DNA of 35,994 nt, taken from contig JAAYJD010000023.1 in NCBI GenBank assembly GCA_012523135.1, forward strand, positions 1-35,994, written 5' to 3'. Shown here piece after piece: positions 18,644 through 22,960 of the stretch; the stretch's first letter is position 1; each line of letters starts with the position of its first letter. Below the pieces are notes generated by a model, which saw only the letters and a list, made by a program, of their open reading frames with translations, was not told the DNA's origin and searched no databases. The translations under genes were made by a program, and so were the position numbers. Origin of the DNA: Clostridiaceae bacterium. Lineage in GTDB: Bacteria > Bacillota > Clostridia > Saccharofermentanales > UBA5734.

Positions 18644-19798
18644 ATGGACTATCGAAAAATTGGCCGCGATCAGGTCGCAACATCACTGTTTGGCATGGGC
18701 TGCATGCGTTTGCCGCTCGAGGTACAGCCGGATGGCAGCAAGCAGTATGGCAAGATCGACGAAGACGAAGCGATTCGCATGATTCGTTATGCGATTGACC
18801 ACGGCGTTACCTATCTCGACACCGCGTATCCTTATCACCAGGGCAACAGTGAACGGGTTGTGGGCAAAGCGCTCACCGGCGGCTACCGGGATAAGGTGCT
18901 CCTGGCGACCAAGATGCCAGTCTGGCAAGTCAAAAAAGCAGCGGACTTTGAGCGGCTGCTCAACGAACAGCTGGAAAAGCTGCAGACGACCTGGATCGAT
19001 TTTTACTTGCTGCACGCCTTGAATGAAGATTCCTGGAAAAAGGTCAAGCAGCTCGGTGTGCTCGATTTTCTCGAAAAAGCCCGCCAGGCCGGGAAGATCC
19101 GTCACATCGCGTTTTCTTTCCACGACCAGCTGCCGGTCTTCAAGGAAATTATCGACAGCTTCGCCTGGGACATGTGCCAGATTCAGCTCAACCTGCTCGA
19201 CGAGCACTACCAGGCGGGCCTTGAGGGCATGCACTACGCAGCTGATCGCGGAATCAGCATCGTGGTCATGGAACCGCTGCGCGGCGGTGCCTTGGCCCAG
19301 AAAGTCCCGCAGGACATCAAAGCGGTCTGGGAGCAGGCACCGGTCAAGCGCAGCCCGGCCGAATGGGCCTTCCGCTATCTGACCGACTACCCGCAAGTCA
19401 GCGTCATCCTGAGTGGCGTCACCACGATGGAGCAGCTTGTCGACAACATCCGCAGCTTCGCAGATGCCAAACCCGATTCCCTGACCGAACAGGAAAAGGA
19501 TCTGATCGGGCAAGTGCAGACCCTCTACCGCGACAAAATCAAGGTGGGCTGCACGGGCTGCAACTATTGCATGCCGTGTCCGTCGGGCGTCTCCATCCCG
19601 GATGTCTTCCGGATCTACAACCAGGCCTTTCTCTACGAGGATCTCGAAGCCAGCCGCAAGCAGTACCAGTCGCTGATCAGCAAGCAGCATGACGCCAGCC
19701 AGTGCGTATCCTGCGGTCAGTGCGAACCGCAATGTCCGCAGAACATCCCGATCATCGCCAAGCTGGCCGAAGCACACGCCTTCTTGTCCCGCACCTGA
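18644..19798 (+). CDS. aldo/keto reductase with C-terminal double [4Fe-4S] domain
   Basis: A 384-residue protein. The N-terminal TIM barrel is an aldo/keto reductase with the catalytic tetrad Asp59, Tyr64, Lys90 and His124. The C-terminal part binds two iron-sulfur clusters: Cys303, Cys306, Cys309, Cys312 and Cys354, Cys357, Cys360, Cys364. This fused form is common in anaerobes; electron donor and substrate are generally unknown. The start at 18644 is chosen because AGGAGG (18632-18637) is six bases upstream; an ATG at 18638 directly abuts that site. It is divergent from the HxlR gene, which probably regulates it in response to reactive carbonyls or redox stress (inference). Confidence 0.93.
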   Translation: MDYRKIGRDQVATSLFGMGCMRLPLEVQPDGSKQYGKIDEDEAIRMIRYAIDHGVTYLDTAYPYHQGNSERVVGKALTGGYRDKVLLATKMPVWQVKKAADFERLLNEQLEKLQTTWIDFYLLHALNEDSWKKVKQLGVLDFLEKARQAGKIRHIAFSFHDQLPVFKEIIDSFAWDMCQIQLNLLDEHYQAGLEGMHYAADRGISIVVMEPLRGGALAQKVPQDIKAVWEQAPVKRSPAEWAFRYLTDYPQVSVILSGVTTMEQLVDNIRSFADAKPDSLTEQEKDLIGQVQTLYRDKIKVGCTGCNYCMPCPSGVSIPDVFRIYNQAFLYEDLEASRKQYQSLISKQHDASQCVSCGQCEPQCPQNIPIIAKLAEAHAFLSRT

Positions 19799-19820
19799 AA
19801 GCAGGCACCATCAAGACAGC

Positions 19821-19850
19821 AACAAGCCGGTCAGTGATGGCCGGCTTGTT
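19821..19850. terminator. hairpin between aldo/keto reductase and bioY (weak terminator)
   Basis: AACAAGCCGG (19821-19830) pairs perfectly with CCGGCTTGTT (19841-19850) around a ten-base loop. It ends at the bioY stop codon. Neither strand has a clean T-run, so termination may be modest; the place between convergent genes supports the role. Confidence 0.5.
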
Positions 19851-20416
19851 CATGCCGGGAAGAATCGCCGGGTCGCCCGGCGCAGATGAGGTGCGGCCGA
19901 CGCCGTCAGCAGGGCGTAGAGGGCATCGGTGCCAAGATACGGGATCAGGCCGATCTGCAGGACACGGACGAAACTGATTGTGTCGCCGCTGACGATGTTT
20001 TTCAGCACATACAGGTAAGCGACGCCGCACAGGTAGATGACAACCAGACCGGCCAGATTGATCGCCAGCGCAGTCAGCCGCTTCAGGCCGTTCCGCTGCG
20101 GGTCCGCCCGGTCAGCCAGGCAGCCGATCAACCCCGCCGCCAGCAGCATGCCGGGCAGATAACCAAAAGAAGGCTGCAGGATATAAGCCGGTCCGCCGCC
20201 AGCCGCAAAGACCGGTAATCCGGCCAGGCCCATGAACAGGTACAGGCCCTGGGCCGTCAGCGCCCGCCGCGAGCCCAGCAGCAGGCCGGTCAGGAAACAG
20301 ACGGCGGTCTGCAAAGTGAAGGGGATGGTGCCCACCGGAATGACCAATTTGCCGCCGATAACGGCCAAACCGCTGAAAATGGCGCATATAGCCAGGTTGA
20401 AAAGATTCTTGCGCAT
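19850..20416 (-). CDS. bioY: biotin transporter BioY (ECF S-component)
   Basis: A 188-residue membrane protein with about six hydrophobic helices and the BioY signatures VPVGTIPFTLQT-like segment near the N-terminus (here IPVGTIPFTLQT) and GGPAYILQPSFGYLPG in the middle. It binds biotin and imports it with an ECF energising module; the fused EcfA and EcfT are encoded about 10 kb away in this window. The start at 20416 is chosen over 20440 because GGGAG lies just upstream and the family start aligns there. It lies directly downstream of birA on the same strand, with its own promoter in between. Confidence 0.95.
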   Translation of the reverse strand: MRKNLFNLAICAIFSGLAVIGGKLVIPVGTIPFTLQTAVCFLTGLLLGSRRALTAQGLYLFMGLAGLPVFAAGGGPAYILQPSFGYLPGMLLAAGLIGCLADRADPQRNGLKRLTALAINLAGLVVIYLCGVAYLYVLKNIVSGDTISFVRVLQIGLIPYLGTDALYALLTASAAPHLRRATRRFFPA

Positions 20417-20450
20417 ACATACTCCCTGATCGCGCCGCATTCAGGCGTTG

Positions 20451-20470
20451 CCCGGTGTTTGCGCACCGGG
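20451..20470 (-). promoter_or_regulatory. hairpin at the 5' end of the bioY transcript
   Basis: CCCGGTG (20451-20457) and CACCGGG (20464-20470) form a seven-base perfect stem with a six-base loop. It begins only a few bases after the expected bioY transcription start. It may stabilise the mRNA; there is no T-run, so it is not an attenuator. Confidence 0.4.
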
Positions 20471-20481
20471 GATTTGCGGTC

Positions 20482-20509
20482 AGTATAGCAGGCTGCGCCG
20501 ATTTGTCAA
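20482..20509 (-). promoter_or_regulatory. bioY promoter
   Basis: On the minus strand TTGACA (20504-20509), 16-base spacer, TATACT (20482-20487) with an extended TG. The -35 is part of the BirA-type half-site, so BirA binding should exclude RNA polymerase. Confidence 0.82.
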
Positions 20510-20545
20510 CCTGCATCTGCAATTATTTAGTTTTTTGGTTGACAA
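20503..20545. promoter_or_regulatory. BirA-type inverted repeat (biotin operator candidate)
   Basis: TTGTCAACC (20503-20511) and GGTTGACAA (20537-20545) are exact nine-base inverted copies, resembling the BirA box halves TTGTAAACC/GGTTTACAA. The spacer is 25 bases, against about 14-16 in known boxes. The left half covers the bioY -35 and the right half lies in the last codons of birA. Confidence 0.65.
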
Positions 20546-21563
20546 TATCTTCTGCCGGCGGATGATAGCCCATCAGGCCGCGCACCGATACGGCTCCGGA
20601 ACGAACCGTTTGGCGCTGGCCCTGGACGTCGCGCACGACCAGTTCTCCTTCTTCGTCCAGATCCACCGCCTGGCCGATCCAAGGCGGCCGGCCGGCTTCA
20701 AGGATGCGCACCGGCTTCCCCAGGGTCAACAGCAAGTCGCGATAGGCATCCATCCAGGCCGGACGGTCTGCCAGATACGTCTCCAGAGCCCTGAAACGCT
20801 GCAAAACAGCCGCGAGCACATCCAGCCGCCTGAAGAGGCGGTTGCATTCGAGCCGCAGCGAGGTCGCGGATGCCGCCAGGTCCTCGTCAAATCGGGTCTG
20901 GTTCAGATTCAGCCCGATGCCGATCACCAGATAGGCGACCCGGTTTTCTTCCATGGCGGTCTCCGTCAGGATCCCGCCCAATTTTTTCCCGCTGGCTTTT
21001 GCGATCAGGTCGTTGGGCCACTTGATGCCGGCAGCCGCACCTTGGCCGGCTTGCTTGATCGCATGGTTCAGTCCCTGGGCAGCGCACAAGCCGGCAAACA
21101 GCGTGGCGCTGGCGATGTCGCGCGCATCGGCATCGGGACGCAGCAGCAGGGAAAACGTCAGGCCAAGGTCGGCTTGCGCGACCCACGCGTGACCGCGGCG
21201 GCCACGGCCGGCGGTCTGGTAACGGGCGATGAAAAGGCTCCTGTCCGGGGCTTGAGCCGCCGCGGCCCGCTTGGCCATCTCGTTCGTGGAATCCGTCTCA
21301 TCGGCAAAATCAACCACCTGGAGCCATTCGGCCAGGCCGCTGTCAGCCAGGGCATCCAGCAAGGTCTGCCGGGTCAGCATATCCGCCTCATAGACCAGGC
21401 AGTAGCCCTGGCGTGTCTTCGCTTCGATCTGGTGGCCGTCCCGACGCAGCTGCTGCATGTGCTTCCAGACAGCGGAACGCGAGATACCGACCCGGTCGCT
21501 GATCTCATGCCCGGATCTATAACCGGGTCGTTCCTTCAATATGGCCAGGATCTTGTTTTTCAC
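20523..21563 (-). CDS. birA: bifunctional biotin ligase / biotin operon repressor
   Basis: A 346-residue protein with an N-terminal winged helix-turn-helix (residues about 1-65, SRSAVWKHMQQLRR), a central ligase domain with the biotinoyl-AMP loop GRGRRGHAW and the KWPNDL motif, and a C-terminal SH3-like domain. It makes biotinyl-AMP from biotin and ATP, transfers biotin to carboxylases or decarboxylases, and in the HTH form represses biotin genes. The last Arg of the usual GRGRRGR loop is His here. The GTG at 21563 is chosen because GGAGG lies six bases upstream; ATG at 21581 is an alternative adding six residues. bioY follows on the same strand. Confidence 0.93.
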   Translation of the reverse strand: MKNKILAILKERPGYRSGHEISDRVGISRSAVWKHMQQLRRDGHQIEAKTRQGYCLVYEADMLTRQTLLDALADSGLAEWLQVVDFADETDSTNEMAKRAAAAQAPDRSLFIARYQTAGRGRRGHAWVAQADLGLTFSLLLRPDADARDIASATLFAGLCAAQGLNHAIKQAGQGAAAGIKWPNDLIAKASGKKLGGILTETAMEENRVAYLVIGIGLNLNQTRFDEDLAASATSLRLECNRLFRRLDVLAAVLQRFRALETYLADRPAWMDAYRDLLLTLGKPVRILEAGRPPWIGQAVDLDEEGELVVRDVQGQRQTVRSGAVSVRGLMGYHPPAEDIVNQKTK

Positions 21564-21625
21564 GGGGGGCCTCCGGTGCATGTGCGCGCGTTCTCCGCGT
21601 CCGCTTCGCTCAGGCAAACAAATAG

Positions 21626-21638
21626 TTTGAAGTTCAAA
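21626..21638. promoter_or_regulatory. 13-bp palindrome in the birA leader
   Basis: TTTGAA-G-TTCAAA is a perfect palindrome between the divergent birA and plsC starts, downstream of the birA promoter. It could be an operator or a short mRNA hairpin; it does not resemble the BirA half-sites. Confidence 0.3.
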
Positions 21639-21666
21639 AAAACAAGTGCCATGTCGGCGTCTTTCC

Positions 21667-21674
21667 ATTATACT
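21667..21674. promoter_or_regulatory. overlapping divergent -10 elements for birA and plsC
   Basis: TATAAT on the minus strand (21667-21672) and TATACT on the plus strand (21669-21674) share four bases. The -35 regions on both sides are poor (TGATCA-like and GTGCCA-like). If both are used, polymerases would compete for the same DNA. Confidence 0.45.
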
Positions 21675-21718
21675 GTATCTAGCACCTTTTGATCAGAGCA
21701 GGGGGGCACGGGCAGCAC

Positions 21719-22960
21719 ATGATCAAACGCCGTTACAATTTTGTTTTCACGGTCATGCGACCATTTTTTCGTCTTTATACCCGCCTGGCTTACGCTTTCC
21801 AGGCGCTGCCGGCTCCGGTTTTGGCAGAAGGCGAGCCTGCCCTGATTTTATCGAATCACAATGCCGCTGTGGATCCTTTTTTTGTGGCGATCAGCTTCAA
21901 GCGGCCGATTTTCTTTGTGGCCAGCGACCATATCTTCCGTCTGGGTTTGGTCAGCCGCGTCATCCGCTACCTGGTCGCGCCGATTCCGATCGTCAAGTCC
22001 CAGATGGATCTGCGCACCTTGCGCCAGATCCGCGAGACCATCCGCGACGGCGGCCTGGTCGGTCTTTTCCCGGAAGGCAACCGCTCGTTTCACGGCCGGA
22101 CCATGTTCATCCCCCCTTCGACAGGGAAGCTGGTCAAGCAGCTGGGCTGTACGGTGCTGCTCTATCGCCTTGACGGCGGCTACCTGACCTCGCCGCGCTG
22201 GGCCCTTCACCGCCGCAAAGGCTTCCTGCAGGGCCAGGTGGTGCGGCGAATCGACCCGCCGGAGCTGGCCAGCCTGACGCCGGAGGCCATCTACCAGATC
22301 ATGAAGGAAGCCCTGGATGTCGACGCTTTTGCCTGGCAACGGCAAAAGCTGATCCCCTACAAGGGGCGGCATCTCGCCGAAGGCCTGGAACGGACTTTAT
22401 TTGTCTGCCCCAAGTGCCATAGCCTGGCGACGCTGACCAGCCGCAACGACCGCTTTTCCTGTGCGTGCGGCCTTTCCGTCCGCTACACGACGCTGGGCTT
22501 TTTTGCCCCCTGCGACGCATGGTCGCAGCAACAGGAAGCAAACGGCACTTTTCTGGACAGTGTGTCGGCCTGGGACACCTGGCAGCGGTCTGCGCTGCCG
22601 GACATCCTGTTCGGCCCCGGTTTCCCGGCGGAGGGCATCTGCCTGCAGGATAGCCAGCAGCAGCTGGTCAGCAGCGAACGTGCCAGCCGGTCGCACGTCC
22701 TGGCCAGCGGACAGCTGCAGCTGTTCCGCGACCGGCTGGTTTTTGACAGCACGGACGGCCAGCCGAAGCACGAGTTCCCAGTCCTGTCAATCAGCCGGAT
22801 GATCGTCCACGGGCCGCAGACACTCCAGTTCACCACACGCGACAACCAGGTCTGGGAGGTCCGGTCAAAGGCTGTCCGTTCCGCCTACAAGTACCTGCTG
22901 GTCTTTCACCTGCTGCAACAGCACCTGAAGGGAGAACCTTATGGATTTTTCGGCATCTAA
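21719..22960 (+). CDS. PlsC-type acyltransferase with zinc ribbon and C-terminal extra domain
   Basis: A 413-residue protein. The N-terminal 200 residues are a lysophosphatidic acid acyltransferase domain with the HX4D motif at His47/Asp52 and FPEGNRS at 117-123. A zinc ribbon follows (Cys230, Cys233, Cys248, Cys250). The C-terminal 110 residues form a beta-rich domain, perhaps PH-like. The first part should acylate lysophosphatidate or a similar acceptor at the membrane; the substrate may differ. The start at 21719 is chosen over a TTG at 21689 because the domain begins there; the AGGGGGG site is rather far upstream (12 bases). The 3' end overlaps the start of the symporter by 20 bases, so the two are cotranscribed. 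Confidence 0.88.
   Translation: MIKRRYNFVFTVMRPFFRLYTRLAYAFQALPAPVLAEGEPALILSNHNAAVDPFFVAISFKRPIFFVASDHIFRLGLVSRVIRYLVAPIPIVKSQMDLRTLRQIRETIRDGGLVGLFPEGNRSFHGRTMFIPPSTGKLVKQLGCTVLLYRLDGGYLTSPRWALHRRKGFLQGQVVRRIDPPELASLTPEAIYQIMKEALDVDAFAWQRQKLIPYKGRHLAEGLERTLFVCPKCHSLATLTSRNDRFSCACGLSVRYTTLGFFAPCDAWSQQQEANGTFLDSVSAWDTWQRSALPDILFGPGFPAEGICLQDSQQQLVSSERASRSHVLASGQLQLFRDRLVFDSTDGQPKHEFPVLSISRMIVHGPQTLQFTTRDNQVWEVRSKAVRSAYKYLLVFHLLQQHLKGEPYGFFGI

Follow-up and report, generated by a model that had tools for sequence, protein, structure and literature searches.

Does a pair of BirA half-sites lying 25 bp apart between birA and bioY form a genuine biotin operator, and if so, how did its spacing come to differ from that of known operators? 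The BirA operator consensus is given as TTGTAAACC-[N14/15]-GGTTTACAA (Rodionov et al. 2002, quoted in PMC545781), and half-sites of the form TTGTcAACC and GGTTgACAA are listed for Geobacter and Desulfuromonas in PMC545781. The site considered here lies in the window, i.e. the whole stretch of 35,994 nucleotides analysed (contig JAAYJD010000023.1 of a Clostridiaceae bacterium, genome G000), with the following features:

19850-20416, minus strand: bioY, encoding the biotin-uptake S component of an ECF transporter (PF02632, E 3e-36)
20482-20487, minus strand: -10 hexamer TATACT of the predicted bioY promoter, 16 bases past the -35 (same spacing in G001 and G002)
20503-20511, minus strand: half-site nearer the promoter (proximal), with minus-strand sequence GGTTGACAA
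20504-20509, minus strand: -35 hexamer TTGACA of the predicted bioY promoter, inside the proximal half-site
20512-20536, no strand: A+T-rich spacer of 25 bp, holding the birA stop codon (20523-20525)
20537-20545, minus strand: half-site farther from the promoter (distal), with minus-strand sequence TTGTCAACC, within the last birA codons
20523-21668, minus strand: birA, group II biotin protein ligase/repressor by domain matches and predicted structure

Read along the minus strand, birA comes first, then the operator, then bioY, and the site reads TTGTCAACC-N25-GGTTGACAA (20503-20545). The preliminary description of it is confirmed by the window: the half-sites are exact inverted copies (20503-20511 versus 20537-20545), one of them covers the bioY -35 (TTGACA, 20509-20504), and the other is inside the birA coding sequence, the end of which (...D-I-V-N-Q-K-T-K-stop) reads through 20537-20545 and stops in the spacer at 20525-20523. 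The inverted half-sites TTGTNAACC and GGTTNACAA expected of a BirA operator are present, exact on both sides, and the site overlaps the -35 of a predicted promoter for a biotin uptake gene, this promoter (TTGACA-16-TATACT) being a strong match with 11 of 12 consensus positions. The spacer, described beforehand as 25 rather than about 14-16 bases, is indeed 25 bp, constant in four species, and falls outside the usual 14-15 (12-17 in the phylum); the site is therefore classed as a variant BirA operator and not as a standard member. The usual length given in the preliminary description is correct as well, the published consensus being N14/15 and the most frequent spacer in the phylum sample 14. 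Shuffling the window 100 times never produced the half-site pair. A scan of the whole genome (3,419,112 bases) with TTGTNAACC-N8-33-GGTTNACAA returned one site, that at 20503-20545, and the reversed control pattern returned none; a relaxed pattern likewise found only the bioY operator in G000, with no second site. No Rfam element, riboswitches included, was detected in 19700-21800. Between the bioY promoter and the start codon, a G+C-rich hairpin-like repeat (CCCGGTG ... CACCGGG, window 20451-20470, minus strand) is present, without a T run after it.

The BirA protein has an N-terminal winged helix-turn-helix, a ligase and a C-terminal domain, as expected of group II, with HTH_11 (PF08279), BPL_LplA_LipB (PF03099) and BPL_C (PF02237) all over cut-off; the ligase model TIGR00121 was also over its cut-off, and TIGR00122 and the PRK11886-type BirA models were below theirs. 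An AlphaFold2 model (mean pLDDT 87.7, residues 337-352 below 50) matched S. aureus BirA best among solved structures (Z 32.8, 317 residues, rmsd 4.2), with a Z of 29.4 for E. coli BirA (2ewn; rmsd 7.7, 312 residues). By its domains and predicted fold, the protein belongs with the ordinary BirAs of group II. Relatives end sooner than the window protein, which carries a C-terminal extension (PAEDIVNQKTK, window 20526-20560) that runs on into the operator and is predicted to be disordered. Although the longest ORF opens at 21668, a GTG at 21563 preceded by GGAGG at 21570-21574 (window 21561-21574) is the likelier start, and the BirA of a near relative (locus L007) begins with the same VKNKILAIL as the window BirA read from this GTG. 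In L007, nested inverted repeats with arms of 30 and 20 nt (L007:1090-1196), absent from the matching window stretch, separate an acyltransferase gene from birA and are possibly a small inserted element.

Loss of the half-sites in relatives had been named beforehand as an outcome that would speak against the operator, and a search for the same geometry before the biotin genes of relatives as a way to check it. In four of the five genomes of the genus (G000, G001, G002 and G003), both halves were found between birA and bioY with a gap of exactly 25 bp. Across these four species, 8 of the 9 positions of each half-site are invariant, as against 4 of 25 in the spacer (A+T 0.80) and 4 of 90 in the flanks (1 among 30 bases upstream and 3 among 60 downstream). 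G001 departs from the strict pattern by 1 base, and G003 has a weak -10 (AAAACT at 17). In G001 the birA stop lies upstream of the operator, so that the distal half, coding in G000, is non-coding there and has been kept without coding constraint; from this comparison of the two loci, the overlap of the operator with birA is incidental. That four related species retain the wide spacing points to a variant that works and not to an accident. The relaxed pattern was matched in all five genomes of the genus. In the fifth (G004, 73% complete), neither birA nor bioY was found, so that it neither supports nor contradicts the wide spacing; its 26-bp match was rejected as a relative of the operator, since it lies inside a frame resembling an ABC-type sugar permease (name read from the translation). 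A 22-bp match in G003 (C17) was set aside as well, its locus having no birA or bioY match.

Outside the genus, the spacing is narrow. Sister genera with the order birA-operator-bioY have spacers of 14 bp (G013) or 13 bp (G015, G021 and G022, and, with three mismatches, G020). G008 has its own 15-bp site before bioY with 2 mismatches. For eight of the 20 family loci (G016, G017, G019, G018, G010, G005, G011 and G006), no pair was found upstream of bioY at up to 3 mismatches or bioY itself was not matched; rescanning these loci whole gave no convincing pair apart from that of G016, a 13-bp pair with 2 mismatches between birA and bioY, elsewhere on the locus than the upstream stretch first scanned. 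Wide matches in G008 (27) and G018 (28) were dropped, as neither was accompanied by a birA or bioY match.

Three wider samples were scanned with strict sites: 1) the order (188 genomes), with spacers of 12 (1 site), 13 (3), 14 (6), 16 (1), 25 (3, all in the window's own genus) and 30 (1); 2) the phylum (398 genomes), with 69 sites in 63 genomes and spacers of 10 (3), 12 (2), 13 (9), 14 (38), 15 (9), 16 (3) and 17 (1), mostly 12-17 with the mode at 14, plus wide spacers of 25 (the window) and of 32, 34 and 38 (1 each); and 3) the class (391 genomes), scanned for spacers of 17-37 only, with 17 (2), 22, 25 (the window), 26, 32 and 33. Among the 946 genomes of these scans, counted by handle, strict 25-bp sites occurred only in G000, G002 and G003, all of one genus. 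Of 46 loci fetched outside the genus, 26 had a birA or bioY match, as called by tblastn with our own queries, which can miss distant relatives, and their spacers were 13 (3), 14 (20), 15 (1) and 17 (2) bp. None of the five strict wide matches on these loci (22, 26, 30, 32 and 33 bp) was near birA or bioY; the 34- and 38-bp matches lie outside this set. Some genomes of the class and phylum samples contain matches to the reversed control pattern too, so isolated wide matches are no more than chance would give. Two of the loci, L049 and L050, carry bioY genes of the class with 17-bp operator spacers, the widest ordinary ones seen; in another, L048 (G329, about 1501-1544), two copies of TTGTAAACCATCTTT in direct repeat precede GGTTTACAA and yield a match at 26 bp, with neither birA nor bioY nearby.

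With the half-sites and the 25-bp gap kept in four species and 13-14 bp in the sister genera, the prediction of a BirA operator made in the preliminary description is supported. The half-sites, their orientation and the kind of adjoining target gene are those of the published BirA operator as quoted in PMC545781, but the spacer is 25 instead of 14/15, longer by one helical turn. BirA operators of B. subtilis are stated to differ in spacing from those of E. coli (PMC4016012), and our full-text searches turned up no wide-spaced BirA operator. For GlcC motifs of Proteobacteria (excerpt of PMC5343134), the half-site spacer length of one regulator varies between lineages, although GlcC belongs to a regulator family other than BirA.

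The direction of the change can be read from the parts that stayed constant. The loci of G013, G015, G021 and G022 share with the window the gene order and the proximal half on the -35, but have spacers of 13-14 bp and, where aligned or measured, BirA proteins without the longer loop before KWPND described below. Since wide and narrow loci alike keep the -35-bearing proximal half in place, it is the distal half that has moved, by 11-12 bp upstream, i.e. about one helical turn. On a tree of 19 BioY proteins, rooted at the midpoint only, the wide state needs one change, with modest branch support (62/80; 61% of 200 bootstrap trees). Taken together, the best reading of these sequences is a genuine bioY operator whose geometry is derived and wider by one helical turn.

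We consider it probable that this bioY operator is spanned by one BirA dimer across a distal half set one turn further out. BirA charged with biotinyl-AMP would dimerize and occupy both half-sites; as the proximal half covers the -35, RNA polymerase would be shut out and biotin uptake lowered when biotin is plentiful. Compared with the sister genera, the distal half is 11-12 bp further upstream, and because this shift is about one helical turn, the half-sites would still be on the same helix face. The dimer may span the extra turn through bending of the A+T-rich spacer, through a different placement of its DNA-binding heads, or both.

An arrangement to which we give a minor but real share of the probability is that BirA binds without one dimer spanning the site: two monomers or two dimers would cooperate, either by bending the DNA or within a higher-order complex. 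The half-site centres are 34 bp apart versus about 23, long for the known BirA dimer, same-face phasing would fit cooperation of separate units, and in S. aureus, BirA monomers can assemble on DNA one at a time, with a dimerization-impaired mutant still able to bind (PMC6391492). However, B. subtilis BirA failed to bind a single half-site (excerpt of PMC4016012), the architecture of the window BirA is usual, and the sequence demands nothing beyond a dimer. It is unlikely that BirA depends on the proximal half alone, with the distal one kept for another protein or reason. The -35 alone would be enough to conserve part of the proximal half, but the distal half is conserved to the same degree, forms its inverted copy at a constant distance of 25 bp, and has been kept both where it is non-coding (G001) and where it is coding (G000). 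Nor did a search of the spacer for a hidden half-site at normal spacing (11-18 bp) yield a candidate better than chance, the mismatches (5, 4, 3 and 4 of 8) being at the level of random A+T-rich sequence. A functionless chance palindrome is very improbable: wide-gap patterns do arise by chance, as the reversed controls and the five wide matches examined outside the genus indicate, but the position, genes and exact spacing are common to four species and the genome of 3.4 Mb holds one site against zero control matches.

A longer arm does not explain a wider reach of BirA, since the linker between the helix-turn-helix and the ligase domain is 42 residues in three of the wide-operator proteins, as in three narrow family members for which it was measured. 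All four wide-operator species have a loop before KWPND that is 5-15 residues longer: the distance between RP and KWPND is 44 (G000), 44 (G001), 54 (G002) and about 53 (G003, by eye) residues, versus 38-40 in narrow-operator BirAs (9 measurable of 11 tried). As the genus is one clade, this insertion counts as a single correlated event. In S. aureus BirA, the KWPND lysine belongs to a bonding network proposed to influence the alignment of the central and DNA-binding domains (excerpt of PMC6391492), which makes the inserted loop a reasonable suspect. We therefore put forward, tentatively and as a less than even prospect, that the operator shifted by exactly one helical turn together with a matching change in BirA, the longer loop by KWPND re-setting the dimer's DNA-binding heads.

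Each of the four bioY-bearing genomes of the genus has one birA, that of G003 being split over two contigs. None of the 23 family genomes had a bioB gene over the model cut-off (the best score in G000 was 84 bits versus 225), so dependence on biotin uptake is probable in these bacteria and, with a single birA, bioY may be BirA's sole target. A lone target would ease a joint change of BirA and its operator. Across the sampled genomes, the gap between BirA half-sites is about 12-17 bp, and a natural, conserved jump of one turn stands out against it. The narrow-spaced sisters at the same locus offer a ready comparison for the rigidity of the BirA dimer and for how repressor and operator change shape jointly; if the matching change in BirA is real, a single-target regulon would have let the two shift together.
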